Source of the DNA: Sphingomonas lacunae
GTDB lineage: Bacteria > Pseudomonadota > Alphaproteobacteria > Sphingomonadales > Sphingomonadaceae
Length of the DNA: 64,000 nucleotides
Direction of reading: 5' to 3'
NCBI RefSeq assembly: GCF_012979535.1
Contig: NZ_CP053015.1
Coordinates: forward strand, 1,488,001 to 1,552,000
Both the position numbers and the translations under genes were made by a program. Positions 3,688 to 19,970 of the stretch are shown in pieces; positions within the stretch are counted from its first letter, which is position 1; each line of letters begins with the position of its first letter. Below the pieces are notes generated by a model. That model ran no database searches. It had not been told where the DNA came from and was given only the letters and a program-made list of their open reading frames with translations.

Positions 3688-4856
3688 CGAACGCTCCTGA
3701 TCGTTATATCCCCCATGGTGCGTCCATCGGTGCCACTGCGCGGGGTGGCAGTGATTGTGTATCCGGCGGCCTGAAGCGCGAGAAGCACGGTGTTGATATC
3801 CTCTGTTCGGGGTGCGGCCAATGTTGCTGACAATGTCCCGTCCGGGCTCCAGGCCAGATTGGTGAGTGCGACGGTGGGCGCTGGTTCCATTGCGGCGACC
3901 AAAGCAGCATAGGTGGCCGAGAAGCGCGCGGTGCCGCCACCGAGGTTCGCCAGTCGTTCATCAAGTTGCGGGATGGCCTGAGCCAGCGGAAGGGGTTCGG
4001 TCAGGACATTCGCGGCTTGAGCGGTGGCGCGGCGATCCAGAGCAGCGGTATCCCATTTTAGCCGCCCCAGCATCGCGAGGGGGATGGCAATGCTGGCGAG
4101 CAGGATGAGGCCAAACAACAGAATAGCCCGGCTTAATGTGAAAGCATCGATCAAGGCGGGCGGGGCCTTGGCCCATTTGCCGCAAAGCAGATCCAGAGGA
4201 ATGGCCTCGGACAAGTCCTGCATGGCCCGTTCAATGGTGTCAGCGGGGGTATCAATGATCCGCGCGCTATCTTCCACGAGTTGGCTGACAAGCGCAGGAT
4301 CCGCAACGAATGCTGTGTTATCTGACCGCAGAATTGGCTGATCACCGAGCGTCGCACGAACGAACGAGCCGGGTCGGTCCACCGGTGGTGATGGCAGCAG
4401 AAGGGCGGCGGGAACCACATGGTCTGCAACAAGACCGTAGCTTGCGAGCCAGTCCCGCCATCGCGACATGAGGCTGTGGCTGGTGATGGCGATGAGGTGG
4501 CTGTTTGCGGAAAAGGATGTGGTGTGGCTTGTGGCTATGTGCAGATCGACTGCCGGAGTTATGCTCTTTTCCGCGGCAAGGAGACGCGCGGTGGCGTCTG
4601 CCTGTCGTGCGGTGAGACCAGGAAAATTGGCGCCTTGGAGGGTGACATCAGCAACGGGCGCAAGTGCGACCAGCATGGTCTGGCCATTCGTTGAATCCCC
4701 AGTCGCAGCATGCAGGTCATCAAGCGTGTTGCCTGACGCAATCACCTGGCCATCAAGCATATGCCACCAATGGCTGCGGTGGTGCACAGGTTCACCCGGC
4801 GCGGCAAGGCTTGCTGCCGGTGGCAAGGTAACGATCAAGACATCTTGTGCGCTCAC
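3684..4856 (-). CDS. gspL: type II secretion system protein L (GspL)
   Basis: Inner-membrane platform protein with an actin-like cytoplasmic domain that binds the GspE ATPase and a periplasmic domain that binds GspM. The product of about 390 aa has a large soluble N-terminal part, a hydrophobic helix about two thirds along (ILLFGLILLASIAIPLAML) and a ferredoxin-like C-terminal domain. A GTG at 4856 is preferred as start: GGGAG lies 5 bp before it and it clears the end of gspK. An ATG at 4889 in the same frame would overlap gspK by 20 bp and is the alternative. It ends with a 4-bp overlap onto gspM. Confidence 0.87.
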   Translation of the reverse strand: MSAQDVLIVTLPPAASLAAPGEPVHHRSHWWHMLDGQVIASGNTLDDLHAATGDSTNGQTMLVALAPVADVTLQGANFPGLTARQADATARLLAAEKSITPAVDLHIATSHTTSFSANSHLIAITSHSLMSRWRDWLASYGLVADHVVPAALLLPSPPVDRPGSFVRATLGDQPILRSDNTAFVADPALVSQLVEDSARIIDTPADTIERAMQDLSEAIPLDLLCGKWAKAPPALIDAFTLSRAILLFGLILLASIAIPLAMLGRLKWDTAALDRRATAQAANVLTEPLPLAQAIPQLDERLANLGGGTARFSATYAALVAAMEPAPTVALTNLAWSPDGTLSATLAAPRTEDINTVLLALQAAGYTITATPRSGTDGRTMGDITIRSVR

Positions 4857-4869
4857 GGGCACTCCCACT

Positions 4870-5865
4870 TCATTGATCGATTCCTTCAAGGCGCCGGATG
4901 ACTTTGGGCGGGGTCTCAGGGGCGCCCGCGTCGATCAGGCTTTCACTGACGGTCATGTTGTTGCCGATTCTGACCCGTGTTTGCAGGCGGAACCAGCGGG
5001 TAACGAGTTTGACCTGGGCGGCTGCTTCACCGCCCGGTTGTTGCCCGGCGAGAGCAGGGCCTGCCCAGAAACGATTGAGGCTGCCATAGCCGCCGGTCGG
5101 TCGGCTGGCGAGATGAGCGCGCGCCTGAGCCGGGGTCAGCCGTGTGGGCATCAGCATCATCAGCAGCGGTGCCTGTTCCGGCAACAGCGTGTTGACGTTG
5201 ACCGGCGACAGCTCGCTGGTTGGCAATGCGCAGACCCACGGACGCAGGCGTGACCAGTTTTGTTTGGTCACGCCAGCAACGGCACGCAGTTCAGCCGCGT
5301 CGCTCATCGCACGGTCTGCCGTGCGATAAGGCGTGGCGCTGACAGCATAGGCGGCGTCTTCGGCGCCGAGAGCAACGGCGTTCTGATCGGCGTCGATCCA
5401 GTCGGCTGCGCTGGCGGCAATGCGGTCCGCCTGGGCGCGATCTATCGAGACGGCCTGCATCAGGGCGATGAACTGTTCAAGGGCAAGCGCGCGCTGGGCA
5501 CTGCCGCCGACAGTGGAATCGGCGACAAGGCTGTTGAGGTTGAAGCAGTTGCCGCCATCAGTCAGCGTCAGTTCGGCACTGCCACCGCCTGGGAGAGGCA
5601 GGATGAAGGGCTTGCCGAGCCAGTCTCCCTCGAGTGTGACCTGTGACTTGCCCTTGACGAGTTGATCAATGCGCCTGAGTGCGAGGGCTTCGGCAGCGAG
5701 ATGATAGTGGCGCGCCTGTTCGATAGCGCTGGCACTTGCAGCGAGGCGGGTGGCGAGGGTGAGGCGCTCGATCGCGGTGGCCGAGATGACGGCCATGACC
5801 GCGACCAGTAGCAGGACGGTGAGCAGGGCGGCGCCTTGCTCGCGGTGAGGCGCGGTGTGGCTCAT
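4870..5865 (-). CDS. gspK: type II secretion minor pseudopilin GspK
   Basis: Largest minor pseudopilin; with GspI and GspJ it caps the pseudopilus. 331 aa. The prepilin leader ends at EQG followed by AALLTVLLLVAVM, so cleavage is expected after Gly11. GspK characteristically lacks the Glu5 seen in the other pseudopilins, and that is so here. The large C-terminal alpha domain and two-Cys region (GNCFNLN, PWVCALP) match the family. Its start overlaps the stop of gspJ by 4 bp. Confidence 0.92.
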   Translation of the reverse strand: MSHTAPHREQGAALLTVLLLVAVMAVISATAIERLTLATRLAASASAIEQARHYHLAAEALALRRIDQLVKGKSQVTLEGDWLGKPFILPLPGGGSAELTLTDGGNCFNLNSLVADSTVGGSAQRALALEQFIALMQAVSIDRAQADRIAASAADWIDADQNAVALGAEDAAYAVSATPYRTADRAMSDAAELRAVAGVTKQNWSRLRPWVCALPTSELSPVNVNTLLPEQAPLLMMLMPTRLTPAQARAHLASRPTGGYGSLNRFWAGPALAGQQPGGEAAAQVKLVTRWFRLQTRVRIGNNMTVSESLIDAGAPETPPKVIRRLEGIDQ

Positions 5866-6494
5866 GTCTGCCCTCCCGCAATCCCCTCTGGAGCGAGGCC
5901 ATCGGGCGCGACGAGGAAGCGCATGGTGAGCGGTGCGGCATTGCTGCGCTGGACGGTCAGTTCGACCGCCAGCGGCAGGCGCGCGGCGTCACCCGCGGCC
6001 CAACTGTCTGACCAGCCGCCATCAGGCCCGCGATAGCGCAGGGCGAGGCTGGTGACGTTGCGCAGCAGCACGGCCGTTTCGCCTTCGCCGGCGCCGTCGA
6101 GGGCGGCGCTGGTGCGACGGACGAGGGTGTTTGTGTCGAGGGTGTAGCTGACGCGGGCGAGGGCGGGGCCGCTGTCATCGCCCGCGCTGGCTTGGACGAA
6201 GGCAAGGCTGGTGGCGGTACCGGCGAGGGCGGGGCGCAACTGGCCCTGCTCGTCACGGCTGGGGCGGGGCTGGGCAGTGGCGAGTTCGCGTCCGAGCAGG
6301 GCGCGCAGCCGGTTGAGGCCGCCGCTGTCATCGAGGCGCGTGCTGATGACCGACTGGGTGTCGATGCTGGCGCGCAGGAGGAGGACGCCGGCAGTTGAGA
6401 GCAGCGCGAAAATGGCGAGCGCGACGAGCATTTCGACGAGCGTGAAGCCCTGTTGTAGAGGGCGAGTTAGAGCCACTTTCCGGGGGGTGGGCAT
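5862..6494 (-). CDS. gspJ: type II secretion minor pseudopilin GspJ
   Basis: Minor pseudopilin of the tip complex. The frame is open further upstream to 6614, but the real start is the ATG at 6494, which overlaps the gspI stop codon by one base and puts the prepilin leader at the N terminus (product about 210 aa). The cleavage site is QQG before FTLVEMLVALAIF, with Glu5 of the mature protein present. The rest is a globular pseudopilin domain. The upstream extension is Arg/His/Pro-rich and looks like a shadow of gspI. Confidence 0.92.
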   Translation of the reverse strand: MPTPRKVALTRPLQQGFTLVEMLVALAIFALLSTAGVLLLRASIDTQSVISTRLDDSGGLNRLRALLGRELATAQPRPSRDEQGQLRPALAGTATSLAFVQASAGDDSGPALARVSYTLDTNTLVRRTSAALDGAGEGETAVLLRNVTSLALRYRGPDGGWSDSWAAGDAARLPLAVELTVQRSNAAPLTMRFLVAPDGLAPEGIAGGQT

Positions 6495-6865
6495 CAGCCG
6501 GTTACCCGGACGGTGGTGAGGCGGGCGGGGGTGCCGTCGGGGGCGGTGACGCGGATCTCGATGCGCAGGACCGAAGGGTCTGCTGTGGCCGTAACCTGTT
6601 GATTTATTGTCCAAACAATGCCGCCATTGGTGATACTGGAGCGGGACTGGCCGATGGTTGGCGGAGCCGGATCGGTGAGGGCGTCGGCGGCGGCGTTGGC
6701 GGCGACGATGCGCGCGATCAAGCGCGTGTCGAGATCGGTGGTCGAGCGTACGGTGAAGGCATCAAGCCGGACCAGGGCAAGCGCGGCGATCGACAATATG
6801 GCGAGCGCGACGAGCATTTCGAGCAGGGTGAAACCCGACTGGTCCGTGGCATGGTGGTTGGTCAT
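6494..6865 (-). CDS. gspI: type II secretion minor pseudopilin GspI
   Basis: Minor pseudopilin that starts assembly of the pseudopilus tip with GspJ and GspK. 123 aa, the usual size. The leader ends QSG before FTLLEMLVALAIL, with Glu5 retained; cleavage by GspO is expected after the Gly. Overlaps gspH by 4 bp and gspJ by one base. Confidence 0.92.
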   Translation of the reverse strand: MTNHHATDQSGFTLLEMLVALAILSIAALALVRLDAFTVRSTTDLDTRLIARIVAANAAADALTDPAPPTIGQSRSSITNGGIVWTINQQVTATADPSVLRIEIRVTAPDGTPARLTTVRVTG

Positions 6866-7347
6866 CGCACACTGACCTCCCCGCTGGCACTGACGATGAC
6901 GCTCGCGCTGGTGCCGCCACTGGTGAAATCAATGCGCAAGGGCGCACTGGGCAAGCCGACCCGGTCAAAGGCGAGGCGGCCCTGACTGGCGCCATTGATG
7001 CTGACCGCCGTGCCGCTGGCCCAGTCATCCCGGGCAAGACGGCCATCCTCTAGCGGTTGCCATTGGCCACCGCTGCGCCGTTCAAAGCCATAGCCCGAAG
7101 CGGTGACCCACAGGCCATGCGGGCGAGCATCAATGACCGCCGTGTCGCGCAGCGCCGCGATCCGGGCGGCAAAGCGCGTCGCCTGCCCCATCGCTCCGCC
7201 GCCTGACGGGGGCATCGACAGGATCACGGCGGTCGCGGCAAGACCAACCAGCGCCAGCACAACCATCAGCTCGACCAGCGTGAAGCCGGCTTCGCGGGTC
7301 AGGGGAAGGCGATCAGTTCGAGCCACCGTAAATGTCGGCCTTGTCAT
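6862..7347 (-). CDS. gspH: type II secretion minor pseudopilin GspH
   Basis: Minor pseudopilin linking the tip complex to the GspG fibre. The leader ends REAG before FTLVELMVVLALVG, with Glu5 present. The start is uncertain: ATG at 7347 gives 161 aa and overlaps the end of gspG by 35 bp; an in-frame GTG at 7326 would overlap by 14 bp. The frame is open to 7467, but that extension lies wholly in gspG and is not credible as a pilin leader. Confidence 0.88.
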   Translation of the reverse strand: MTRPTFTVARTDRLPLTREAGFTLVELMVVLALVGLAATAVILSMPPSGGGAMGQATRFAARIAALRDTAVIDARPHGLWVTASGYGFERRSGGQWQPLEDGRLARDDWASGTAVSINGASQGRLAFDRVGLPSAPLRIDFTSGGTSASVIVSASGEVSVR

Positions 7348-7789
7348 CGCTGCCACCCGGCGCGCCGTCGGCACCCAGCGAATAGATGCTGAACGGGGCA
7401 CCATTCCGGCCCGGGACCTCAAGCTGATAGGGACGACCCCATGGGTCATCGGGGAGGTCGCGGACATAGCCGCCTGACCGGTAACGAGTGGGATCGGTGA
7501 GGCTGGCCGGCGGAGTGCGCAGCGCGGCGATGCCGTCGGCAGCGGTCGGGTAGCTGAGATTGTCGAGCCGGTACATCTCCATCGCCTGTTCGAGCGTGGC
7601 GATGTCCGCCTTGGCCTTGGTCACCATCGCCTTGTCCTGACTGGGCAGGACATTGATCAGCACGATGGTGGTGAGCAGGCCGAGGATGAACAGCACGACC
7701 ATCAGTTCGGTGAGGGTGAAGCCCTGTTCATCGCGGGGCCGCTTTGGCAGCGGTCGGCGGGTGAGGAGGCGGATGAGGGAAGGCAGCAT
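7313..7789 (-). CDS. gspG: type II secretion major pseudopilin GspG
   Basis: Main subunit of the periplasmic pseudopilus that pushes substrates through the secretin. 158 aa. The leader of 23 residues is Arg/Pro-rich and somewhat long, ending EQG before FTLTELMVVLFILG, with Glu5. Typical GspG features follow: KAMVTKAKADIATLEQAME, the DNLSYPTAADGI loop and the C-terminal SIYSLGADGAPGGSDDKADI region, whose acidic residues bind calcium in characterised homologues. Only 3 bp separate it from gspF. Confidence 0.95.
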   Translation of the reverse strand: MLPSLIRLLTRRPLPKRPRDEQGFTLTELMVVLFILGLLTTIVLINVLPSQDKAMVTKAKADIATLEQAMEMYRLDNLSYPTAADGIAALRTPPASLTDPTRYRSGGYVRDLPDDPWGRPYQLEVPGRNGAPFSIYSLGADGAPGGSDDKADIYGGSN

Positions 7790-7792
7790 GGA

Positions 7793-9007
7793 TCAGGGTC
7801 CGGTCATTTGCTGGAGTTGCAGGATGGGAAGCAGGATCGAGAGGATGATGAGCGCGACGATGACGCCCATGATGACGATGATCAGCGGTTCGAGAAGCGC
7901 CATCGCGGTCGAGGTGAAGCGGTCGAATTCGCGTTCAAGATAGTCGGCGGCGCGTTCGAGCATCGTGTCGAGCTGTCCCGCGCTCTCGCCACTGGCGGCA
8001 AGATAGACGAGCAGCGGCGGGAAGACATTCGCGCTGCGCATGGCGGCCGAAAGGCTGCCACCGCCGCGCACCTGTTCGACAATGTCGGCGGTGGCAGCGG
8101 CGAGGACGCTGTTGCGGATGGTCGGGATGGTCAGGCGCAGTCCCTCGATCAGCGGCAGGCGGCTGGCCACCATCGTCGAGAGCGTGCGGGCAAAGCGGGC
8201 GGCGTGCAGATCCCGCAGCAGCCGCCCGAGCAGGGGCAGGCGCAACAGCCAGCCGTCAAAGGCGCGACGCGGGCCAGGTTTCCGGAGCAAGGCCCAGCCG
8301 CCGGCAGCGACAAGGCCGAGAGCAATCAATACTGCCCACCACCAATTGGCGGCAAAGGACGAGAGGGCGATGACGATGCGGGTGAGCAGCGGGAGTTGCT
8401 GGCCGACCGTGTCAAACTGTTCGACCACCTTTGGCACCACCCAGATCATCAGCGCGGCGATGACCGACAGGGCGACGAGCGCAAGAACGACGGGATAGGC
8501 GAGCGCGGAGATCAGCTTTCCCCGCACTTCGGCCTGCCGTTCGAGCAGGGCGGAGAGGCGGGTGAGGATGGTCGGCAGCGAGCCCGAGCTTTCACCGGCG
8601 CTGACCATGGCGCGGTAGAGGGCGGGGAAGCTTTTGGGTTCTCGCGCCATGGCGTCGGCGAGGCGGCGTCCTTCGACAATGCCTGCATGGACATTGCCGA
8701 TGATGGTGCGGACATGTGCCGTCTCGGACTGGCGCGAGGCGGTGCGCAGGGCTTCCTCAAGCGGAGTGACCTCGGTCAGGGTGGCGAGTTGGCGGGTGAA
8801 CAGTGTCAGCTCACGCTGGCTGATGCGGTTGCGGGTCAGGGTGAGGAGGGACTGGCCCTTGATCGGAGCTGTGCCGGGGGTGCATTCGACGACGAACAGG
8901 CGGCGCTGGACCAGCTTGGCCTCGGCAGCGGCGCGATCCTCGGCGCTGATGTGGCCGCGTTTTTCCTTTCCAGCGGGGTCAATGGCGAGATAGCGGAAAT
9001 CAGCCAT
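7793..9007 (-). CDS. gspF: type II secretion inner-membrane platform protein GspF
   Basis: Polytopic inner-membrane protein at the base of the secretion machine, thought to couple GspE ATP hydrolysis to pseudopilus growth. 404 aa, the family norm. It carries two copies of the T2SSF domain (about residues 70-195 and 270-395), with membrane segments near residues 165-190, 220-240 and at the extreme C terminus (VIVALIILSILLPIL). Each repeat holds the typical 'F...Y..m...GE.sG' pattern: FPALYRAMVSAGESSG and FPPLLVYLAASGESAG. Confidence 0.95.
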   Translation of the reverse strand: MADFRYLAIDPAGKEKRGHISAEDRAAAEAKLVQRRLFVVECTPGTAPIKGQSLLTLTRNRISQRELTLFTRQLATLTEVTPLEEALRTASRQSETAHVRTIIGNVHAGIVEGRRLADAMAREPKSFPALYRAMVSAGESSGSLPTILTRLSALLERQAEVRGKLISALAYPVVLALVALSVIAALMIWVVPKVVEQFDTVGQQLPLLTRIVIALSSFAANWWWAVLIALGLVAAGGWALLRKPGPRRAFDGWLLRLPLLGRLLRDLHAARFARTLSTMVASRLPLIEGLRLTIPTIRNSVLAAATADIVEQVRGGGSLSAAMRSANVFPPLLVYLAASGESAGQLDTMLERAADYLEREFDRFTSTAMALLEPLIIVIMGVIVALIILSILLPILQLQQMTGP

Positions 9008-9010
9008 GGC

Positions 9011-10489
9011 TCATCCCGCCTCGCCCTCTTCGCGGCGCGAAATGCGGATGGCTTCCTCGACCGTCGTTTCGCCCTGCTGCACAAGCGCGCGGGCGGCGCT
9101 GGTCAGCGTCGGGCCGGATAGAAAGGCGTGGGCGGCGATGGCGCTTTCGTCGGCGCTCTCGTTGATCAGGCGACGGATGGTCTCATCAACCTGCACCGCC
9201 TCATAGACGCCGATGCGGCCGCGATAGCCGCTGTTGGAGCAGGCGGGGCAGCCAGTGGCGGTGAAGATGGCGGTGCCGGGGGCGATGCCGACCATGCCGG
9301 CGATGCTGGCGTCGGCGGGCACGGCACGGCGGCAATCGGGACAGAGGCGGCGGACGAGGCGCTGGGCAACGACGGCGCGCAGCGAGGAGGCGATCAGGAA
9401 GGGCTCGACCTTCATGTCGCGCAGCCGGGTGATCGCGCCGACCGCGTCATTGGTGTGGACGGTCGACAGGACGAGGTGGCCGGTGAGCGAGGCCTGCACG
9501 GCGATGTCGGCCGTCTCCCGGTCGCGTATTTCGCCGACCATGACAACATCGGGGTCCTGCCGCAGGATGGCGCGCAGACCGGCGGCAAAGGTCAGGCCGA
9601 CCTTTGGATTGACCTGTGTCTGGCCGATGCCGTCGACCGCATATTCGACCGGGTCCTCGACGGTGAGGATGTTGCGGCTGCCGTCGTTGAGCCGTTTCAG
9701 GGCGGCATAGAGGGTGGTTGTCTTGCCCGATCCGGTCGGGCCGGTGACGAGGATGATGCCATTGGGTTCGGCGAGCGCGGTGGTGAGGATGCGTTCTGCC
9801 TCGCCCGACAGGCCGAGCCGGTCAAAGTCGATGCCCGCCGTATCCTTGTCGAGCAGGCGCAGCACCACGCGCTCCCCTGCGCGGCTGGGCAGGGTGGAGA
9901 CACGGACATCGAGGCTCTTGCCGCCCAGCGTCAGGCCGATGCGGCCGTCCTGCGGCACGCGGCGTTCGGCAATGTCGAGCCGGGCCATGACCTTGATACG
10001 GCTGACAACGACGGGTGCGACATGGGCCGGCATCCGCAGCACTTCGCGCAGCAGGCCGTCTATCCGCATGCGGACGACAAGGCCGCTTTCATAGGGTTCG
10101 ATGTGAATGTCGCTGACGCCCTGACGCGCGGCGTCGGCGATGATGCCGTTGATCAGGCGGATGGCGGGGGCATCATCCGCGCTGTCGAGCAGATCCTCGG
10201 CGGTTGGCAGGTCGGTGGCGAGCAGATCAAGGCTGCCTTCCCCTGCGGCAATGGCTCCGGCCATGGCGGCGCGGCTGTCCATCGCATAATGATCGGCCAG
10301 CAATTCGTCGAAGCGGCTGGCGCTGACCAGATCGACGGCAAAGGCGTGGGTGAGGTGGCGGCGGACCTCAATCAGCACGCGTGGGTCGCTGCCCTCTCGC
10401 AGGGCGACGACAGGTGCACCGTCGCGTTCCCCGGCCAGCAGCACGCCCTGTTTCAAGGCAAAGGCATAAGGGATGGGTTCGACGACCAT
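9011..10489 (-). CDS. gspE: type II secretion ATPase GspE
   Basis: Cytoplasmic hexameric ATPase that powers secretion, docked by GspL. About 492 aa from the ATG at 10489; the frame is open to 10603 but that part overlaps gspD. Visible elements: N1/N2 domains, Walker A GPTGSGKTTTLYA, the Asp box and Walker B around DPDVVMVGEIRD, the His box region, and a zinc-binding C-terminal insert with CPDC and CPAC. It starts 15 bp after the gspD stop with only a weak ribosome site, so translation may depend on gspD. Confidence 0.94.
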   Translation of the reverse strand: MVVEPIPYAFALKQGVLLAGERDGAPVVALREGSDPRVLIEVRRHLTHAFAVDLVSASRFDELLADHYAMDSRAAMAGAIAAGEGSLDLLATDLPTAEDLLDSADDAPAIRLINGIIADAARQGVSDIHIEPYESGLVVRMRIDGLLREVLRMPAHVAPVVVSRIKVMARLDIAERRVPQDGRIGLTLGGKSLDVRVSTLPSRAGERVVLRLLDKDTAGIDFDRLGLSGEAERILTTALAEPNGIILVTGPTGSGKTTTLYAALKRLNDGSRNILTVEDPVEYAVDGIGQTQVNPKVGLTFAAGLRAILRQDPDVVMVGEIRDRETADIAVQASLTGHLVLSTVHTNDAVGAITRLRDMKVEPFLIASSLRAVVAQRLVRRLCPDCRRAVPADASIAGMVGIAPGTAIFTATGCPACSNSGYRGRIGVYEAVQVDETIRRLINESADESAIAAHAFLSGPTLTSAARALVQQGETTVEEAIRISRREEGEAG

Positions 10490-10503
10490 GGTCACTGTGC
10501 CCG

Positions 10504-12726
10504 TCACTGGCCCTGCGGTTCGGATGAGGGCTGAGGTGGGGGTGGTGCGAGGTCGCTCGGTGGAACGGCTGTGCTGGCCATTGGCGCATCGGGCGCGCGC
10601 CATTCGGTGAGCGGACCGCCGCTGACCGTGACATCGTCGGCGCGCGGTTGGACGGCGGGCGGGGTGGTGCCCAGATAGTCGCGAACGAGCAGGTCGATCT
10701 CCGGTTCCGCTTCCGGATCACGCGCCAATTGCTCGGCGCGGATGAAATTGTAGCGGCGCGCGGTCATCGCCGCATTGTCGGCAGCATTTTCAAGAATGGT
10801 CGGGCGGATGAAGACCATCAGATTGGTGCGGGCGTGGCTGCGCGAGCGGGAGCGGAACAGTTCACCGAGCAGCGGAATGTCCGAGAGCAGGGGAACCCGC
10901 TCAAGCGTGCGGCGCTCATCATCATTGAGCAGGCCGCCGATGGCGACAATCTGGCCATTGTCGGCTGTCATTACCGTGTCAAACCGCCGCTTGTTGAGGA
11001 CGAGGTCACTCGAACGGCTGGAGACGGGCCCGGCGACACTGGACACTTCCTGAGAAATGTAGAGGGTGACCTCGCCGGAGGCGTTGATCTGGGGCGTGAC
11101 CTCCAGCTTGATGCCGACTTCCTCACGCTGGACGGTGCGGAAGGCATTGTCGAAATTGTTGGACAGGCGCTCGCCGGTGGTCACCGGCACTTCCTGACCG
11201 ACGAGGAAGCTCGCCGGGCTGTTGTCGAGGGTGACGATGTGCGGCGTGGCGAGCAGGTTTGAGGCAGTGTCCGACTGGACCGCGTTGATGATCGCGCCGA
11301 ACACCGTGTTGCGGCCGACATCCCCGGCGAAGCCGGCAAAGCCGCCGGTCGCGGTGAGCAGGCTTTGCGCCGCTGCTTCGGAGACGGCGCTCCCGAACGG
11401 GTTGGTCGAGGTGGTGGTAACGACATTGCCGTTGATTGTCGTCGTGTCGCGGGAGAGTTCATAGCCGGCGACGGCAGCCCCGATGCTGAGGATATTGGGG
11501 TTGGCGTTGCTGTAGTTGGTCGCGACGAAGGGTGTGTTCTGGCCGCCAAGAAGGAATTGCACGCCAAGCTGGCGGGCGGCGTCATTGCCGATTTCGACGA
11601 CGATGGCCTCCACCAGAACCTGGCGGCGGCGGATGTCGAGCTGGCGAATCAACTCGCCCAACTGCCGCTGCACATCGGCATTGGCAGCGACAATGATGGC
11701 ATTGGCGCCTTCGTAGCGGGTGACGATGGCTGGCCCTCGCTGGACGATGCTGCCGCGACCGCCGGCGGTTGTGGTGGCCGGAGCCGAGGGGGCCGGGGCC
11801 GGGGCGGCGTTGCCATTGCCTTCACCTGCCGATGATGGTGCTGCGGGCGGAGGCACCGGGTCGCTGCCGCCGCCGACCAGTTGCTGGAGCGTCGGCAACA
11901 GACGGGCAGCATCGGCATGGTTGAGCCAATAGACGCGCACTTCAGCCGAGGAGGCGGAACGCTGGTCAAGCTCGTTGGCGAGGGCGGCAAAGCGTTCGAC
12001 GGCGGCAGCGTCGCCACGGATCGCGATGCTGTTCGAACTGTCAAAGGCGGCGACAGTGACCGCGCCGGTAGCCGGAGCACCATTGGCGCCGGCCTGTCCC
12101 GCGCCAAGTTGCTGCAGCGAGGCGGCGATTTCCCGCGCGCCGGCATTGCGCAGGTGAACGAGGCGCGTGGCGCTGGCGTCGCGGTCAATCGAGGCGACGA
12201 GGGCGCGGATGCGGCGGACATTGTCGGCAAAATCGACGACCACCAGGCTGTTGGCGTTGCGGTTGGCGGTGACCGACCCTTGCGCGCTGACCAGCGGGCG
12301 CAGCGTTTCGATCGCTTGTGTCGCGTCGATATGACGCAGGCGGACGACTTCGGTCACCAGCTGGTTGGCGGCGGCGCCGGCGGTGCCGAGGCGGCTCGGC
12401 TGGGCAGCGGCGCCATCGACCGGCTGGATGCGATAGCTGCCGTTGGGCAGGGGTATGGCGATCATGCCATTGGCGCGCAGGGTGGAAAGGAAAATCTCGA
12501 AATATTCGGCGCGGTTGAGCGGGCGTTCGGTGACAACGGTGACGCGCCCCTGCACCCGGCCATCGACGACGAAGGTGCGGCCGGTGACGCGTGCTGCATC
12601 GGCAATGAAGGCGCGGATGTCGGCATCGCGGACGTTGAGGACATGCTGGGCAAGGACCGGTTGGGCCGCCATGAGGACAATGGCACTGCCGAACAGGGCG
12701 TGGCGAAGGAAGGCGTGGCCGGTCAT
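10504..12726 (-). CDS. gspD: type II secretion outer-membrane secretin GspD
   Basis: Forms the 12- to 15-subunit outer-membrane channel. 740 aa with a cleavable signal peptide (to about residue 26, VLAQ), then the N0 domain, three N1-N3 repeats with a Pro/Ala/Ser-rich insertion in N3, and the C-terminal secretin domain. The secretin signature EVPVTTGER and the conserved end GGLLNDDERRTLERVPLLSD followed by LGELFRSRS are seen. A C-terminal tail of about 80 residues, Pro-rich, may serve as the S-domain; no separate pilotin gene is present in the cluster. Overlaps gspC by 4 bp. Confidence 0.95.
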   Translation of the reverse strand: MTGHAFLRHALFGSAIVLMAAQPVLAQHVLNVRDADIRAFIADAARVTGRTFVVDGRVQGRVTVVTERPLNRAEYFEIFLSTLRANGMIAIPLPNGSYRIQPVDGAAAQPSRLGTAGAAANQLVTEVVRLRHIDATQAIETLRPLVSAQGSVTANRNANSLVVVDFADNVRRIRALVASIDRDASATRLVHLRNAGAREIAASLQQLGAGQAGANGAPATGAVTVAAFDSSNSIAIRGDAAAVERFAALANELDQRSASSAEVRVYWLNHADAARLLPTLQQLVGGGSDPVPPPAAPSSAGEGNGNAAPAPAPSAPATTTAGGRGSIVQRGPAIVTRYEGANAIIVAANADVQRQLGELIRQLDIRRRQVLVEAIVVEIGNDAARQLGVQFLLGGQNTPFVATNYSNANPNILSIGAAVAGYELSRDTTTINGNVVTTTSTNPFGSAVSEAAAQSLLTATGGFAGFAGDVGRNTVFGAIINAVQSDTASNLLATPHIVTLDNSPASFLVGQEVPVTTGERLSNNFDNAFRTVQREEVGIKLEVTPQINASGEVTLYISQEVSSVAGPVSSRSSDLVLNKRRFDTVMTADNGQIVAIGGLLNDDERRTLERVPLLSDIPLLGELFRSRSRSHARTNLMVFIRPTILENAADNAAMTARRYNFIRAEQLARDPEAEPEIDLLVRDYLGTTPPAVQPRADDVTVSGGPLTEWRAPDAPMASTAVPPSDLAPPPPQPSSEPQGQ

Positions 12727-13568
12727 GGGTTTCCGTTCGGGATGGTGATGGCGATGGGCACGGTGCCCGCGCCGCGTTCGACATCAAGGCTGAGGCGGGC
12801 GCCGGGGGCAAGCTGGGCGGAGATGGCGGAGATATCTGCCGCAGAGGTGATCGGGCGACCATTGACCGCGCGGATCACATCTCCGGCACGTAAACCGGCG
12901 GCGGCAAAGGTGGTGCCATCACCCTGTTGCGCGACGCTGATCCCGGTGACGCGGTTGCCGATGGTGCGCGGGCTGAGCGCGAGACCGGACCGCAGGGCAG
13001 CGGCGCTGAGCGGGGCCCCGGCTTGGGGCGCGGGGATGGCGGTGGTGGGTGTGCCTGCGGGACTGTCGGCGCTGGCGGGGGCAGAGGCTGTGGCTTGGCC
13101 CTGGTCGAGGTAGAGCAGCTCGATCTTGCCGCCATTGTCGATGGCGACATGGTCGAAATGCACGGACCTCAGGCGAACGCCGGGCTGGATGTCCTCGCCG
13201 ACACCGATGCTTTTCTGAATCCCATCACCGCCGGCAATGATCGCCGATCCGCCCCCGCCGTCAATGCGGACGCCGAACAGTTGCAGTTGCAGCGAGGTGA
13301 CGGTGGTGCTTCCCGCTTCGGTTGGTGCAACGCTGCGGTAAAAGGGGTCGACGCGGGCGAACAGGTCCGCCTTGGCATCGGCGGGCATGTCGACGGGCTG
13401 GCGGGGTTGCCATGCGCCGACAGGTGTCGCGGGGGTAATCAAGACAAAGACCAGACGCGCGCATTGGATAATCAGCACCAGCGACAGGGCCGCGATAAGC
13501 CAGCCGCCGGGGCTGGCCCGCAGCGAACCGAGCCGCTGGCGCAGGCGCTGGTTGATGGTCATCACCAT
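12723..13568 (-). CDS. gspC: type II secretion system protein GspC
   Basis: Bitopic inner-membrane protein that links the platform to the secretin and helps choose substrates. 281 aa: cytoplasmic start, one membrane helix at about residues 22-42 (LIAALSLVLIIQCARLVF), the homology region, then a C-terminal PDZ domain (about residues 190-280, with LRAGDVIRAVNGRPI). ATG at 13568 or the in-frame ATG 6 bp later may be used. It is first in the gsp operon; a PhoB-box array begins 52 bp upstream. Confidence 0.92.
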   Translation of the reverse strand: MVMTINQRLRQRLGSLRASPGGWLIAALSLVLIIQCARLVFVLITPATPVGAWQPRQPVDMPADAKADLFARVDPFYRSVAPTEAGSTTVTSLQLQLFGVRIDGGGGSAIIAGGDGIQKSIGVGEDIQPGVRLRSVHFDHVAIDNGGKIELLYLDQGQATASAPASADSPAGTPTTAIPAPQAGAPLSAAALRSGLALSPRTIGNRVTGISVAQQGDGTTFAAAGLRAGDVIRAVNGRPITSAADISAISAQLAPGARLSLDVERGAGTVPIAITIPNGNP

Positions 13569-13620
13569 GGCCGCCGTTCATTCCCCTTGAGAGCGCGGAT
13601 ACGTCATGCGAGTCGCCGCT

Positions 13621-13671
13621 ATGACAGTCGCGTGACTATATGGTGACACTCACAATACGGAAATATGACAG
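13621..13671 (-). promoter_or_regulatory. PhoB-box array upstream of the gsp operon
   Basis: Five 7-bp units lie in exact 11-bp phase with 4-bp spacers (unit starts at 13621, 13632, 13643, 13654, 13665). On the minus strand four of the five match the Pho-box half-site CTGTCAT well (CTGTCAT, TAGTCAC, GTGTCAC, CTGTCAT); the unit at 13654 is degenerate. The gspC-proximal unit ends 52 bp before the gspC ATG, room for a -10 element and leader. PhoB boxes with this 7+4 layout are established in Proteobacteria; control of this operon is inferred from the pattern. Confidence 0.8.
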
Positions 13672-13696
13672 GTCCCGGCGATTGGCACCAAAACAA

Positions 13697-13728
13697 GCCC
13701 CTTCCGGCACCGGCGTGACGGAAGGGGC
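13697..13728 (-). terminator. terminator of the TonB-receptor transcript
   Basis: A perfect 10-bp stem (GCCCCTTCCG with CGGAAGGGGC) and a 12-nt loop. Read on the minus strand it is followed by TTGTTTTGG, a usable U-rich tail. It lies 30 bp after the receptor stop codon and just upstream of the PhoB-box array, so it insulates the gsp promoter from the receptor transcript. Confidence 0.8.
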
Positions 13729-13757: not shown

Positions 13758-16445
13758 TCAGAATTTGAGCGTGGCACCAAGGGAGACGCTTGTCCCGAGC
13801 CGGTAACGGTTGAACCAGATGCGGTTGGCGCCGGACTGTTGATATTCCTCATAGCGGCGGCCGGTCAGGTTGCGGGCCTCCAGCTTTACGTCGAGTTCGC
13901 GGCCGAACAGGGTGAAGCCCTGACGTGCGACAAAGTCGATCTGGATGCCGGGATGTTCCTGGATGTCCGGCTGACCCGAGGGACCGCGACTGGTGACGCG
14001 GGGACTCGAATAGGTGATCAGGATCGTCTGCTGCGAATTGGTTTCGGTGTCCTCAAGGCCAAATTGCAGGTTGACCAGATGGTCCGACTGGCCGGTGAGC
14101 GGGGAGCCGTCAAAGAAGAAATCCGAAGCATCCAGCGTCTGGCCGTTGATTACCGTGGTGTCATTGGCTGCAACGCTGATGTCTGATTGGGTATAGGTGT
14201 AGTTGGCGATGAGCACGGCCCGGCGATTGGCCCAGAAATCCCCACCCCATGTATCGAGCGGAAAATATTTCTGCAGTTCGAACTCGACACCATAGAGGCT
14301 GGCGGTGGGCGCGTTGGCATAGCTGGTGTTGACGGTGTTGCTGTCCTGCGAGGTGTAGGCCTCGATCGGATTATCGATCCGCTTCCAGAAGGCGGCGGCG
14401 GTGATGCGCTGTTCGCGGGCGAAATAATATTCGTAGCGCGCCTCTGCATTCCACAGCCGGCTGTCGGTCAACGAAGGGTTGCCGCGATAGAGGCGGTTCG
14501 ATTCCGGGTCCTGATAGACTTGCGCGACCAGTTCGCGGAATTGGGGCCGGGCGATGGTGCGCGAGGCATTGACCCGCAATTGCATGTCCTCTGCCATTTC
14601 CCAGGTCAGGGTGACGGCAGGCAGCCAATAGTCGTTGGCGAGGTTGGTCGCGGCGATGGCGCTGCCGCCGCTGCCGAACAGGTCGATGGGCACGACTGTC
14701 TGGGTCGCGTCTTCGTAGCGGACGCCCAGATTGACGTTGAGGCTTTCGACGACCGGCGCCTGGATTTGCGCATAGCCGGCATGGGTGGTCAGGGCAGCGT
14801 CAAAGGCTGCGGTGCCGTCCTGCGCCGAGGTTTCGAGGAGGGTGATGCCGAACTGCTGGATGGTGGCATCCGACAAGAGATAGTCGGGACGCAATTGCTG
14901 GACGGCGACCGGCAGGTTGGCGGCGCGATACTGGAAGGCACGACGGATGGCGATGCGCTGGGTATCGCTGTAGCCATAGCCGACGCTGAGCGTGGTCTGG
15001 GGCGCCAGTTCATAAGAAAGGTCAATTCCGCCTGACCACAGGGTTTCATTGAGGTCGGAAAAGGCGATGGTCGCCCCGCCCTTGTTGCCGCCGAGGTCGT
15101 TGACAAAGCGGTCACCGGTCGGGTCCTGTGCCAACGGCAGGTTGGTGCGGACATAGGTGAAGGTCCGTTCATAGGGCGCCTCACGCTGCGATTTGGCATA
15201 GCTGCCGCGCAGATCGAGGCTGAACGGGCCGAATTCAAACTCACCGACAATCTGGCTGTCGATCAGCTGGCGCTCATACCAGGCAGTGTCCTGCACCATG
15301 ATGTCGCGATCAACCTGGTTCTGGTCGGTGCCGGTGGCGAGACGAGCTTGTTTGAGCGTGTCGCGAATGTAGAGATTGGTCCAGCGCAGACGATGCTCGC
15401 CAAATTCCGCGCCCAATCCGAGCAGGCCGTTCACGACAACGCGATTGTCAGTGATGACCCGGCGATAATCGGTCTGCGGGTCGCCCGACAGGTCGAGTTC
15501 CAGCGAGGTTTGCTGAAGTGTGTCGCGGGTGCGCCACTTGTTCGAGATTCCGGCGGTGGCGATGATGCCAAAGCGGCTGTCGCCGATGTCGAACGAAGTG
15601 CCGCCCGTCAGCGTTCCCGACCAGTTGACCGGCATGTTGTTATTGGTCTGCAGCAGCGAGGTGCGGCTGTTGACTAGGCTCATGGCCAGGGTCTGGAGAT
15701 CGGTCCGGCTGAAATCAGCGCCTTCGATGATCGGCTTGCCGCTGGCGAAAGCGGCGGCAAGGCCTGCGGGGACATCGCGCGTGCCATCGTCAAAGCCGGT
15801 CCAGTCGGTCGGGCTGCCATAATAGACATAGCCGAGCTGCCCGGTGGTTTCGCTGTCACCACCCAGGCTGCCGCCGATTGACAGGAAGCTTTCGTCGGGG
15901 ATGGCACGGGTAGTGAGATTGACCACGCCACCGCCGAATTCGGCTGGGAAATTCACCGAGTAGCTTTTCTGGACCAGCGTCGAGGCGATAATGTTGGTCG
16001 GGAAAATGTCGAGCGGCACGACGCGCTTCAGCGGTTCGGGGCTGGGCAGCGGCGAACCGTTGAGCAGGGCCAGCGAATAGCGGTCACCCAAACCGCGGAC
16101 ATAGACATAGCCGCCACGGGCGACCGACAGGCCGGTTACCCGGCCGAGTGCGCCGGCAATGTCGCCTTCACCGGTACGGGCGATGTCTGCGGTCGACAGG
16201 ACCGAGACAACTTCAGGTGTGGCGCGCAGTGGATTGGGGGTGAAGCGACCGCGCACGATAATGTCCGCGCCGTCAAAGCCCGGCACCGAGACGTCCGCTT
16301 CTTGGCCGCCTTCGCTGGATTCCGGCGCTGCGTCACCGTCCAAGGATTCGACGGGTGATTCCGTCGGCCCTGTCTGGGCATGGGCGGCGGGCGCCACCAG
16401 CGCGGTTGACAGCAGGAGCAGGTGCAGCAGGGATTGCGGCTTCAT
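13758..16445 (-). CDS. TonB-dependent outer-membrane receptor
   Basis: Outer-membrane barrel for energised uptake; ligand not identifiable from sequence. 895 aa from the ATG at 16445, which has AAGGGGGAC before it and starts a clean signal peptide (ends AHAQ). The plug domain runs about residues 55-190 and includes VYVRGLGDRYSLALLNG and the NFPAEFGGGVVNLTTR end. The remainder is beta-barrel, and the last residue is Phe (LGATLKF), as expected for outer-membrane insertion. The lipoprotein gene 87 bp upstream and the PhoB array before it suggest uptake of a phosphorus compound, for example an organophosphate; this is inference. Confidence 0.93.
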   Translation of the reverse strand: MKPQSLLHLLLLSTALVAPAAHAQTGPTESPVESLDGDAAPESSEGGQEADVSVPGFDGADIIVRGRFTPNPLRATPEVVSVLSTADIARTGEGDIAGALGRVTGLSVARGGYVYVRGLGDRYSLALLNGSPLPSPEPLKRVVPLDIFPTNIIASTLVQKSYSVNFPAEFGGGVVNLTTRAIPDESFLSIGGSLGGDSETTGQLGYVYYGSPTDWTGFDDGTRDVPAGLAAAFASGKPIIEGADFSRTDLQTLAMSLVNSRTSLLQTNNNMPVNWSGTLTGGTSFDIGDSRFGIIATAGISNKWRTRDTLQQTSLELDLSGDPQTDYRRVITDNRVVVNGLLGLGAEFGEHRLRWTNLYIRDTLKQARLATGTDQNQVDRDIMVQDTAWYERQLIDSQIVGEFEFGPFSLDLRGSYAKSQREAPYERTFTYVRTNLPLAQDPTGDRFVNDLGGNKGGATIAFSDLNETLWSGGIDLSYELAPQTTLSVGYGYSDTQRIAIRRAFQYRAANLPVAVQQLRPDYLLSDATIQQFGITLLETSAQDGTAAFDAALTTHAGYAQIQAPVVESLNVNLGVRYEDATQTVVPIDLFGSGGSAIAATNLANDYWLPAVTLTWEMAEDMQLRVNASRTIARPQFRELVAQVYQDPESNRLYRGNPSLTDSRLWNAEARYEYYFAREQRITAAAFWKRIDNPIEAYTSQDSNTVNTSYANAPTASLYGVEFELQKYFPLDTWGGDFWANRRAVLIANYTYTQSDISVAANDTTVINGQTLDASDFFFDGSPLTGQSDHLVNLQFGLEDTETNSQQTILITYSSPRVTSRGPSGQPDIQEHPGIQIDFVARQGFTLFGRELDVKLEARNLTGRRYEEYQQSGANRIWFNRYRLGTSVSLGATLKF

Positions 16446-16484
16446 GGGATAGTCCCCCTTTGGACTGGAACAGATATGCAAAGG

Positions 16485-16531: not shown

Positions 16532-18115
16532 TCAGGTCGGGATCAGCGTGCAAGCGCGGCTGGCCGAGCCGAAGTTGGCCGTCGACGAGTTGCAGGTCCA
16601 ACCGGTGTACCAGGTATCGTTGGCGTCCCTGACCGCACCGATATAGCTGGTGGTGTCAAAGAAGGCGTTCAGGGAACGGGCGTTGAACGGGGTGATGCCG
16701 GTTTCGGTTGCGCCGTTGATGAACAGGCTGACCAGCGACGGCGTGTAGCCGAAACTGTTGTTGGTGCCGGCGGTGAACAGCGTCTGCACATCGGCGTTGG
16801 TCACGCCGCCCGATCCGGTGAAGGGCGAGCTGCCGCACTGCATCTGGACCGAGTTGAATTTGGGCGCACCCAGTTCATCCAGAGCAGCGTCAACGGTCGC
16901 ACGGGTTGTTGTGGCGCTGTTGAGGCGAAGGCAGCTGAGCCCCGGAGCGATGACAATACCGTTCGACATGTTGTAATCGGCGCCGCCACGGATCAGCATG
17001 GCGGTGGCGTTGGCACCAGAGGTCGAACGCTGGATGAAGGTGAAGTTGGACAGGTTGACGGCCTGACGCGGGACCGCTTCCTCATTACCGTTCGAGTCGG
17101 CTTCGATGATCGAGTCACCGACGGCACCGCCAGCGCGCTGAACGGCGATGACATACTGGATATTGCCCTTGTAACCGACATCGGTGTCGAGATTGTCATC
17201 CTCCGCACCGGTGATGACCAGCCGCTTCATGTTGACCCGGCCACCGAACACTTCGATGCCGTCGTCCGAGCTGTTGTGGATCTGGATATTGTCGATCTGG
17301 GTGCCGCTGCCGACGCCTGAGGGAGTCAGGCCTTGCAGTTCGGAGTTGGCTGAAAGGATGAAGCCCGAATAGCGGATCTGGACATAGCTCATGCGGCCCG
17401 AATTGTCGGCTGGCTGTGCACCGCCGTAGAGCGCGTTCGACGTGCCTTCTGTGTCGCGTTCGCACGCGACAGTGCCGGGAGCAGCCCCGGGCGCGAGGCA
17501 GTCGGTGATCGGCGCTCGGCCGAGCAGGACGACACCGCCCCACAGCTGGGACGTTTGGTCGTCGGCCGAGCCAACGACATTGCCGCGACCGGTAAAGACG
17601 ATCGGCTGGGTCGGCGTGCCGACGGCGTCGATCCGGTTGCCGCGATTGACGACAAGATAGGAAACGCCGGTTGCGCCGAACACGGTAACACCCGGATCAA
17701 TGGTCAGCGTGACGACAGTGTTGGTGCTGGACGCGCCCTGATCGGTGCCGACATCGACCCGGCCGGGCAGCGAGTAGATGACCCCGGCGACCTTGGGGAT
17801 GGCGGTGGTGGCGGTGAATCGCGCCGGGAAGCCGCAATTGCGCCATTCGCCCTGCGGGCCGCTGATCGTGCCGAGGTTGGTGAGCTGATCGGGGCCGGCG
17901 ATGGTGGGGCATGCGGCCGTCGGGGTGACGGTGGTCGGCGTTGGCGTGGGTGTCGGAGCCGGGGCTGGGGCCGGAGCCGGTGCCGGCAGAACGATGGTGC
18001 CTTCGCCCGGCGAGGCAATGTCGTCGGCACCGCAGGCGGTCAGCGTCAGCGCGGCGACACCGGCGAGCAGGGCGGCGCGTCCCCGGCTGGATGATATAAG
18101 GGCGAAGTGTGCCAT
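16532..18115 (-). CDS. surface or secreted lipoprotein, partner of the TonB receptor
   Basis: About 527 aa. The signal sequence ends in a lipobox LTAC with the lipidated Cys at residue 28, followed by GADD and a Pro-Ala/Pro-Thr linker. The rest is Gly/Asn/Thr-rich, with repeated short beta-strand patterns (for example QIRYSGF, IQIHNSSDDGIEV, RLVITGAEDDNLD) that suggest a right-handed beta helix. It has no recognised catalytic motif. Start at 18115 is preferred over 18136 because GGAG precedes it. Position next to a Pho-controlled secretion operon recalls the phosphate-starvation lipoprotein ElpS that Caulobacter exports through its type II system; homology to ElpS is not shown here. It may be a substrate of the gsp machine. 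Confidence 0.8.
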   Translation of the reverse strand: MAHFALISSSRGRAALLAGVAALTLTACGADDIASPGEGTIVLPAPAPAPAPAPTPTPTPTTVTPTAACPTIAGPDQLTNLGTISGPQGEWRNCGFPARFTATTAIPKVAGVIYSLPGRVDVGTDQGASSTNTVVTLTIDPGVTVFGATGVSYLVVNRGNRIDAVGTPTQPIVFTGRGNVVGSADDQTSQLWGGVVLLGRAPITDCLAPGAAPGTVACERDTEGTSNALYGGAQPADNSGRMSYVQIRYSGFILSANSELQGLTPSGVGSGTQIDNIQIHNSSDDGIEVFGGRVNMKRLVITGAEDDNLDTDVGYKGNIQYVIAVQRAGGAVGDSIIEADSNGNEEAVPRQAVNLSNFTFIQRSTSGANATAMLIRGGADYNMSNGIVIAPGLSCLRLNSATTTRATVDAALDELGAPKFNSVQMQCGSSPFTGSGGVTNADVQTLFTAGTNNSFGYTPSLVSLFINGATETGITPFNARSLNAFFDTTSYIGAVRDANDTWYTGWTCNSSTANFGSASRACTLIPT

Positions 18116-18230
18116 GGGATGTCTTGCTCCGGACATGGGTTCTGGGAACCGGGACGAATGGATCGCGCCGAATCCGGAGCAGGAAAATGCACCCCCGATT
18201 CGCCGCCGGGGCAGCGTCTATGGGGCGGGC

Positions 18231-18292
18231 ATGACAGGGCCGTGCCACTTTGGTGACAGATGCGCGTCACCGGTGTGACGACTGTGTGACAG
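18231..18292 (-). promoter_or_regulatory. PhoB-box array upstream of the lipoprotein-receptor operon
   Basis: Six 7-bp units in exact 11-bp phase with 4-bp spacers (starts at 18231, 18242, 18253, 18264, 18275, 18286). On the minus strand the outer units read CTGTCAT and CTGTCAC, the others CTGTCAC, TCGTCAC and GTGGCAC; the fourth (18264) is degenerate. A CATAGA hexamer lies about 8 bp downstream of the last unit and could be the -10. The lipoprotein ATG is 115 bp downstream. Role in PhoB activation is inferred from the established box layout. Confidence 0.8.
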
Positions 18293-18323: not shown

Positions 18324-19970
18324 TCAGCCGTTGAGCTGGTTGCGGCCGTGATCGACGCTTTGCGTGACTTCACCGGCCATTGCGGCATCGGCGGTGCGCA
18401 CACTGTCCCACAATCTGAAGGTCGAGGAGGCGCGATCGGGCGTCAGGCTGACCTTCATATAGCCGCGACGTGATGTATCGACCCATTTGAGGCTTGGGTT
18501 CGCATGCCGCAGCGCGTTCGCCACCCGGTCTGGCGAGACCGGGGTGTAGGATTCAAAGCCGCCCGAGGTCACGCTTTGCCCGGCGAATTCGACACCGGCC
18601 GGGCGTCCATCATGGGCGAGGTCGAACGCCCAGCCATTGTGGCTGTCGCCCGAAAGGGTGACGAGATTGGCCCCGGCGGATTGCGCCGCAGAGAGCAGGC
18701 GGGCGCGGGCTGCGGGATAGCCGTCCCACGCGTCGAGGTTGAAGGGCAAGCCAGCGGCGGCAGCGGCGGCGCCTGCTTCCACCCGGCGCAGGACATAGGC
18801 GGGGGCGTTGGCGGGGAACCAACTGGCGGTATCCTGTGGCTGATAGATACTGCCCATGATCACCTGTTGCGCCAGCACCTGCCAGCGGGTGCCGTTGCGG
18901 GCGGAATGGGCGAGGGTGCGGGCCAGCCAGGCTTCCTGTACCATGCCCAACAATGTCCGGTCCGCAGCATTCCACACCGTGTCCCGGAAGCGGGCAAGGG
19001 CGGCGCCCCGTTCCGCCTCGCTGAGCAGCTCGGGGTGCATTTCAAGCTGCTGCATCCGCCCGGTGACGCGGGTTTCGGGCATGGCGATGGTAGCGAGGGT
19101 GCCGATTTCGTAGCTGCGGTAAGGCGTGTCGCTGACCGGCATCCATTCGTGCCATGCCTGAAGCGCAGCGGCTTTGCGCGTCTGCCAGTCGCCCTCGCTG
19201 TCGGGACTGTGGTTTTCGGCACCGCCTGACCAGGCGTCATTGGCAAATTCATGGTCGTCGGGCTGGGCGAGCATCGGCAGGCATTGATGGATGCGTTGCA
19301 GCGCGGGGTCGGCGCGGTAGCTGGCATAGCGCAGGCGATAGTCGGCGAGCTGGATAATCTCGGTTTCGGGCAGGAACCCGCGCCCGGCCACATGGCGTTC
19401 GCGCAGCGGATAGGTGCCCATCGCATATTCGTAGAGATAGTCGCCAAGGTGGATGGCAAGATCAATGTCGCCCGCCATCGCGGCATGGGCATAGGCATTG
19501 AAGAAGCCGAAGCCGAGGTTGGAGCAGGAAAAGACGCCAAGGTTGAATTGCGCGACATCGCCCTCTGGCAGGGTGCGGGTGCGGCCGATGGCGCTGCTGC
19601 TGCCGTCCGGCGCAATGAAGCGGTAATAGTACCAGCGGCCGGGCGCCAGGCCGGTGACCGTCAGCTTCGCGGTATGATCGCGCGCCTCGCTGGCGGTGAT
19701 GTTGCCGCCGGCGACGGGGCGGGTGAAGTCCTGCGTTTCGGACAGTTCGGCGATCAGGCGGCTTTCCGGGCCGCTGCCGATATAGCGTGTCCACAGCAGG
19801 ATGGATGAGGACGTTGGCTCGCCACTGGCGACACCATGGGTGAAACCGCGCGCTTGGCGGAGCGATTGGGCCGCTCCGGGGACAGCGAGCGCGCCAAGGC
19901 CGAGCGTTGAGAATTGCAGCAGCAGACGGCGATCGGGGCGCCATGACTGCCCCCGGTTGGGGTTGCTCAT
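18324..19970 (-). CDS. phoD: PhoD-type alkaline phosphatase / phosphodiesterase
   Basis: Exported metallo-phosphoesterase that frees phosphate from esters, using Fe and Ca in characterised PhoD enzymes. 548 aa. The N terminus has a twin-arginine pattern DRRLLLQF followed by a hydrophobic segment and AAQ, so Tat export is likely. A PhoD N-terminal beta domain precedes the catalytic domain. Metal and active-site motifs: FSCSN, HLGDYLYEY, DDHEFANDAW and LSGDSHNGWAFDL. It lies upstream of, and on the same strand as, the PhoB array, so it is not driven by that array; I see no clear Pho box before its own start, which has GGGAGAGAG. Confidence 0.93.
   Translation of the reverse strand: MSNPNRGQSWRPDRRLLLQFSTLGLGALAVPGAAQSLRQARGFTHGVASGEPTSSSILLWTRYIGSGPESRLIAELSETQDFTRPVAGGNITASEARDHTAKLTVTGLAPGRWYYYRFIAPDGSSSAIGRTRTLPEGDVAQFNLGVFSCSNLGFGFFNAYAHAAMAGDIDLAIHLGDYLYEYAMGTYPLRERHVAGRGFLPETEIIQLADYRLRYASYRADPALQRIHQCLPMLAQPDDHEFANDAWSGGAENHSPDSEGDWQTRKAAALQAWHEWMPVSDTPYRSYEIGTLATIAMPETRVTGRMQQLEMHPELLSEAERGAALARFRDTVWNAADRTLLGMVQEAWLARTLAHSARNGTRWQVLAQQVIMGSIYQPQDTASWFPANAPAYVLRRVEAGAAAAAAGLPFNLDAWDGYPAARARLLSAAQSAGANLVTLSGDSHNGWAFDLAHDGRPAGVEFAGQSVTSGGFESYTPVSPDRVANALRHANPSLKWVDTSRRGYMKVSLTPDRASSTFRLWDSVRTADAAMAGEVTQSVDHGRNQLNG

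Follow-up and report, generated by a model that had tools for sequence, protein, structure and literature searches.

Phased PhoB-box arrays before the type II secretion operon and an elpS-like gene of Sphingomonas lacunae point to control by phosphate

Does Sphingomonas lacunae build its type II secretion machine when phosphate is short? The question is raised by a run of short direct repeats in front of gspC, at positions 13621-13671 (minus strand) of the window, by which we mean the whole stretch of 64,000 nucleotides analysed here. An initial annotation of this DNA had described the run as five 7-bp units with 4-bp spacers in exact 11-bp phase, four of them CTGTCAT-like, ending 52 bp before gspC, and had read it as a PhoB-box array through which phosphate starvation probably induces the secretion operon. 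Read on the minus strand from 13671, the units are CTGTCAT (13671-13665), CCGTATT (13660-13654), GTGTCAC (13649-13643), TAGTCAC (13638-13632) and CTGTCAT (13627-13621), separated by attt, gtga, cata and gcga, and the description is correct throughout: only the second unit, CCGTATT, is poor, the other four of the five are CTGTCAT-like, and 52 bp lie between the array end at 13621 and the gspC ATG at 13568. The PHO box as published is an 11-bp repeat of CTGTCAT (PMC4415409), and the gspC array, with at least two direct 11-bp repeats of CTGTCAT-like heptamers, has the form of one. Just upstream lies a credible terminator for the neighbouring TonB-receptor gene (13690-13728, minus strand), as had also been claimed: a 10-bp stem with an inner hairpin occupies 13728-13697 and is followed by UUGUUUU, the stretch giving a z-score of -2.55. 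This 13728-13697 structure is absent from the list of a simple terminator scan.

The genes behind the array form a complete type II operon, GspC to GspN plus a prepilin peptidase, all on the minus strand. They are gspC (12723-13568; T2SSC, PF11356, 67.6 bits) and, likewise assigned by Pfam, the secretin gene gspD (10504-12726), the ATPase gene gspE (9011-10603, the first ORF start of which may be too early), gspF (7793-9007), gspG, H, I, J, K, L, M and N in that order (2483-7789), and, 26 bp past gspN, the prepilin peptidase gene gspO (1707-2456; Peptidase_A24 and A24_N_bact). With thirteen genes from gspC to the prepilin peptidase in a row on one strand and never more than 26 bp apart, the proposal that the entire machine stands under the array is a reasonable one, and the transcription unit probably extends over all of them.

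We then asked how readily such an array would arise by chance. Scored against TGTCAY in each unit, the gspC array departs from the core at 4 of 30 positions; when the full window was dinucleotide-shuffled 200 times, no five-unit score was better than 7 misses, and in the real window five-unit decoys spaced at 9, 10, 12 and 13 bp came to 8, 11, 10 and 10 misses, respectively. The two-unit form of the pattern occurs 27 times in the window against a shuffle mean of 12.9, a count that 0 of 100 shuffles reached, and 7 of these 27 matches fall in the gspC array and the elpS-side array described below. Across the genome (2.98 Mb, single contig) the two-unit pattern is not discriminating, with 808 matches versus 613 in the reversed control. 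The three-unit phased pattern is: at up to 3 mismatches it yields 18 matches versus 3 in the control, and at up to 1 mismatch it is found in 4 places, versus 0.011 expected under an independent-letter model. These four are 1732323 (perfect), the gspC array, window positions 18231-18258, and 1623747; 3 further places and one overlapping match have 2 mismatches. The gspC array, with 1 mismatch, is tied second in the genome among three-unit matches. Its rank, which the initial annotation had proposed as a check, is thus high, and the accompanying statement that phased arrays of three or more half-sites are uncommon by chance stands. The annotation had also named many equal matches in coding DNA as a result that would count against it; this nearly applies to the two-unit form and does not apply to the three-unit form. 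The frequency of two-unit matches speaks for a chance resemblance, but the array scores far better than the shuffles, the decoys of other spacing and the reversed pattern, and it is conserved as well (see below); we give chance practically no probability.

A second array, unreported in the initial annotation, lies further upstream. It comprises six units in 11-bp phase at 18231-18292 (minus strand) and, read from 18292 to 18231, departs from the core at 4 of 36 letters, against 10 in the most favourable of 200 shuffles. It precedes a lipoprotein gene of 534 codons (16532-18136, minus strand; likely true start ATG 18115) with the lipobox LTAC, which is followed after 50 bp by a gene for a TonB-dependent receptor (13758-16481, minus strand), in the position of Caulobacter CC0171. 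This is the setting of elpS, a lipoprotein gene with a TonB-receptor gene between it and gspC, and we call the lipoprotein gene elpS-like; the grounds for relating it to Caulobacter ElpS are gene order and lipobox, and not a comparison of sequences. On its other side the six-unit array adjoins a gene for a PhoD-like alkaline phosphatase (18324-19970, minus strand), directly upstream of which no array was seen.

What the ElpS-like protein itself resembles can be stated in part. None of 21 members has a Pfam family, and by sequence no solved structure matches (best E 0.23). Its AlphaFold model (pLDDT 82) gives weak matches to beta-helix proteins in the PDB, e.g. AlgE4 epimerase, with a best E of 0.005, and the protein is predicted to be a parallel beta-helix. 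Invariant DD and GG pairs occur in the lipoprotein.

If these arrays are operators, which regulator reads them? The genome encodes a PhoB ortholog, which scores 337.3 bits with TIGR02154 (NCBIfam) against a cut-off of 296.2, matches the E. coli PhoB DNA-binding domain among solved structures (1gxp, E 4e-22) and is encoded next to phoU and pst genes. One of the arrays with 2 mismatches, at 1774527, lies in that same cluster (pstSCAB-phoU-phoB), between phoR and pstS. The strong array at 1623747 (L057:6748-6775) stands ahead of a NUDIX/PhoU_div (DUF47) gene and a PHO4 phosphate-transporter gene (pit-like); it sits within the mechanically longest ORF, started at TTG, the true start of which is probably later. 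PhoB thus probably controls the low-affinity PHO4 transporter as well, possibly as a repressor. Seven genome matches to the OmpR-type DNA-binding domain provide other candidates, and PhoB-related regulators can use direct repeats of similar spacing. A member of the OmpR/PhoB family other than PhoB is nonetheless an improbable user of the gspC array: unit sequence and spacing fit the PHO box, arrays of the same type stand before pstS and the pit-like operon, and the locus itself holds PhoD and ElpS-like genes.

To see whether the arrays are kept in relatives, we scored the sense strand over the 350 bp that precede each gene start with the three-unit 11-bp pattern at up to 4 mismatches, leaving unscored any locus that offered less than 200 bp of upstream sequence or had the gene in the opposite orientation. 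The same-genus set comprised 54 stretches out of 58 same-genus genomes with a gspD match (the window's included), G009, G021 and G026 being left out and L192, at a contig end, offering no scorable gspC upstream; the named relatives were the best 80 of 164, most with a 10-kb flank. G015 (L178) and L109 have identical GspD rows and contigs of equal length (65,629 bases), are probably one genome and are counted in both groups. An array precedes gspC in 84 of 133 loci (window 1/1, same genus 53/53, named relatives 30/79) and stands before 86 of 93 elpS-like genes (window 1/1, same genus 38/41, named relatives 47/51), counts that cover loci of shared ancestry and not independent events. TonB-receptor starts, used as a negative control, carry an array in 1 of 102 cases. 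At gspC and the elpS-like gene, respectively, decoys with 10-bp spacing gave 0/133 and 0/93, those with 12-bp spacing again 0/133 and 0/93, and reversed ones 6 and 3, while letter decoys gave 5 and 5 (CATGTY), 0 and 1 (GTTACY), 1 and 0 (TCGATY) and 55 and 46 (ACTGTY), the last of which shares a shifted CTGT with the motif and is not counted as independent. Within the genus (53 rows) the promoter block carries 1.6-1.8 bits per column versus 0.25-0.39 in its flanks. A stricter three-unit scan, at up to 2 mismatches, covered a first set of 110 loci (1.73 Mb; 30 short same-genus loci, the window's own included, and 80 named ones) and returned 23 matches, with none for each of the reversed, 10-bp and 12-bp decoys. 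One is the window's gspC array; another 16, on the sense strand and 5.5-9.6 kb ahead of gspD, are found upstream of the elpS-like gene.

The remaining six of the 23 matches fall in that intergenic area too but on the other strand, facing a divergent neighbour, about 6.0-6.3 kb before gspD (L105, L106, L107, L111, L112 and L176).

ElpS-like genes were also sought outside these sets. They occur in 6 of 192 sampled genomes of the class (the window's included), and in the other five there is no array in the upstream stretch covered, of up to 1.5 kb. Nor was an array found on the sense strand in the wider surroundings of three of those five; beside the pair, one of the three has a gspC-like gene and another a gspE-like gene.

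How would an array at this position act on the promoter? The hexamer TAGCGG at 13616-13621 (minus strand), a possible -10 element, starts 10 bp past the fourth unit; it is weak and overlaps the fifth unit. In the same-genus gspC consensus a TA stands 10 bp downstream of the last array unit, and at the elpS-like gene the hexamer TAGACG places its TA 10 bp downstream of the last unit of the 18292-18231 array; at both promoters the -10 assignment is an inference from sequence. The overlap in S. lacunae is what a repression operator could show, and PHO boxes are known in genes without obvious phosphate regulation (PMC4415409). PhoB might on these grounds repress the operon, or the array might have no regulatory effect at all. 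In the genus, on the other hand, a last unit 10 bp before a conserved TA-containing element is an activator-like layout, and conservation argues for function; we therefore give repression or inertness only a slim chance.

The pstS promoters of the genus provided a yardstick. Loci were taken from 30 of 59 genomes with a match, 29 without the window. These 29 same-genus promoters carry a two-unit box, 28 with 1 mismatch and 1 with none, and mostly no third unit, 28 of 29 scoring 4-5 for three units. At gspC, 51 of 53 same-genus loci score 2-3 for three units, and the best pair scores 2 in 50 of 53. The expectation that gspC would have a promoter no worse than that of pstS is consequently borne out for the number of units and not for the best pair, which is slightly poorer.

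Taken as a whole, the sequence evidence (the PHO-box match, the PhoB ortholog, the arrays at pst and pit-like genes, conservation in the genus and the Caulobacter precedent discussed below) supports the initial reading of PhoB control over the secretion operon. Very probably, the gspC array is the operator-promoter of gspC-O, through which PhoB drives production of the secretion machine in phosphate scarcity, with the elpS-side array acting likewise and the locus serving as a phosphate-scavenging cassette. We envisage that, when phosphate is scarce, PhoR phosphorylates PhoB, and that phosphorylated PhoB would bind the 11-bp units head to tail and recruit sigma-70 RNA polymerase, substituting for a -35 box. 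Transcription of gspC-O would follow, and the secretion machine would be made, or made in larger amount. The six-unit array would be a second PhoB promoter, driving the ElpS-like lipoprotein gene and probably the TonB receptor 50 bp downstream. Together with the adjoining PhoD, the locus would combine a secretion machine, a surface or secreted lipoprotein as its presumed cargo, an outer-membrane importer and a phosphatase. That the row is kept in many relatives suggests that the cell builds its secretion machine when phosphate runs short. Against PhoB control of the operon stand the weakness of the -10 element and the absence of the gspC array, at 4 mismatches, from 49 of the 79 named relatives. 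E. coli PhoB, moreover, binds many inert sites, those described being intragenic and mostly unconserved (PMC10294691).

The closest precedent is that of Caulobacter crescentus, where the order is elpS (CC0170), the TonB receptor CC0171 and gspC-N, and where phosphate-starved cells make ElpS and the type II system assists in its release (PMC2996285). A lipoprotein gene, a TonB-receptor gene, a complete type II operon and a tie to phosphate starvation are thus common to both. In S. lacunae, however, arrays stand directly before both gspC and the elpS-like gene, sites of a kind that do not figure in the Caulobacter descriptions as excerpted; the prepilin peptidase gene follows gspN on the same strand, whereas Caulobacter gspO has the opposite orientation (PMC2996285); and a PhoD gene adjoins the locus. 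A similar gene arrangement is ascribed in that paper to "Sphingomonas alaskensis", which is now Sphingopyxis alaskensis. Pho regulon promoters with multiple PHO boxes, E. coli ugp among them, likewise have a series of 11-bp repeats, head to tail, ahead of the promoter (PMC4415409), but the genes controlled here encode a secretion machine. The general link between phosphate and type II secretion is already known from Caulobacter; new here are the array before the elpS-like gene and the picture of which sphingomonads keep the arrays and which lack them. Among the matches listed for the open-access literature we recognised no description of Pho boxes before a sphingomonad type II operon.

The Hxc system of Pseudomonas aeruginosa is a second, dedicated type II system, in contrast to S. 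lacunae, where gspD has one match in the genome at E 1e-40. Hxc is similarly tied to phosphate starvation, secreting the alkaline phosphatase LapA, encoded beside it, and differs in that an extra sigma factor, VreI, works there with PhoB (PMC7035377).

The Caulobacter data also bear on how strongly PhoB would act. In 2010 the Caulobacter machine was called constitutive, gspE and gspL changing only 1.7-fold and GspL protein staying level (PMC2996285). By analogy, PhoB might merely modulate a basal, nearly constitutive secretion operon in S. lacunae too, the real starvation switch lying on the elpS-like cargo through the six-unit array. The wider retention of the elpS-side array (47/51 named loci, versus 30/79 for gspC) fits such an arrangement, as does the best unit pair of gspC, which in the genus is slightly poorer than that at pstS or at the elpS-like gene. 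The genus gspC array has, on the other hand, more units than the pstS box, and a 2024 study places the Caulobacter type II system within a PhoB regulon of 47 genes (PMC11208175). We consider mere modulation unlikely, if far from negligible, and partly compatible with a PhoB-driven machine, so that the probabilities of the two overlap.

Where, then, is the gspC array missing? On a GspD tree that took in 8 same-genus loci, it is present in 39 of 88 rows, a distribution that needs at least 14 changes, and in the main Sphingomonas clade in 3 of 35 rows, 32 being without it. The close relative L098 has neither elpS-like gene nor receptor nor array, and its phoD adjoins gspC. When the loci are sorted by the gap between receptor and gspC (the window included, other same-genus loci left out), the array is found in 17 of 22 with a gap below 400 bp, in 5 of 28 with a gap of 400-1500 bp, and in 8 of 28 with no such receptor upstream of gspC.

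In five of the wide-gap loci (L101, L104, L136, L163 and L171), the interval between receptor and gspC contains an ORF of about 208-227 codons that runs on the opposite strand; L136, L163 and L171 are without the gspC array, and L101 and L104 have it. By motif, this ORF may encode a 2-oxoglutarate/iron oxygenase-like protein.

A broader proposal, which we hold to be plausible if slightly doubtful, is that in Sphingopyxis-type sphingomonads PhoB acts directly on the machine as well as on its cargo, by way of more phased units than pstS has, a wiring that comes and goes by lineage while the elpS-side array stays nearly constant. If true, a secretion system would have been repeatedly captured by or released from the Pho regulon, and such lineage-variable wiring could help to reconcile the "constitutive" and "PhoB-regulated" reports on Caulobacter. 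Should PhoB control of the locus hold, production of the secretion machine, of the surface lipoprotein and probably of the importer would be joined under one regulator, giving a cis-element basis to a link so far seen in Caulobacter expression data. Across sphingomonads, gspC promoters could also indicate which ones use the machine for phosphate; phosphate-scavenging secreted enzymes are important to oligotrophic aquatic bacteria.

Some arrays of the genome lie elsewhere. Its best three-unit array, the perfect one at 1732323, is located at L056:7313-7351 (genome C1:1732312-1732350), between the cytidylate kinase gene and rpsA, and is followed by a 52-aa ORF. This ORF is not clearly conserved, with matches in 3 of 60 genomes, one being the window's own and the others having E of about 0.008 and 36-38% identity; a small RNA or rpsA itself is a possible target. 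For the array at 1589696 our ORF filter (120 codons, GC3 0.6) gave no gene, and that at 2647104 lies about 190 bp before an FAD/NAD oxidoreductase gene, also inside a mechanical ORF of 156 codons. Upstream of the FAD/NAD oxidoreductase gene, at L060:7094-7132, imperfect 11-bp tandem repeats resemble a PhoB array and may be a simple repeat.

Finally, 8 of the 80 named loci (L098, L109, L110 and L116-L120) have a phoD homolog in the vicinity of the type II cluster, upstream, divergent or downstream within the flank covered, hinting at a repeated association of phosphatase and secretion genes.
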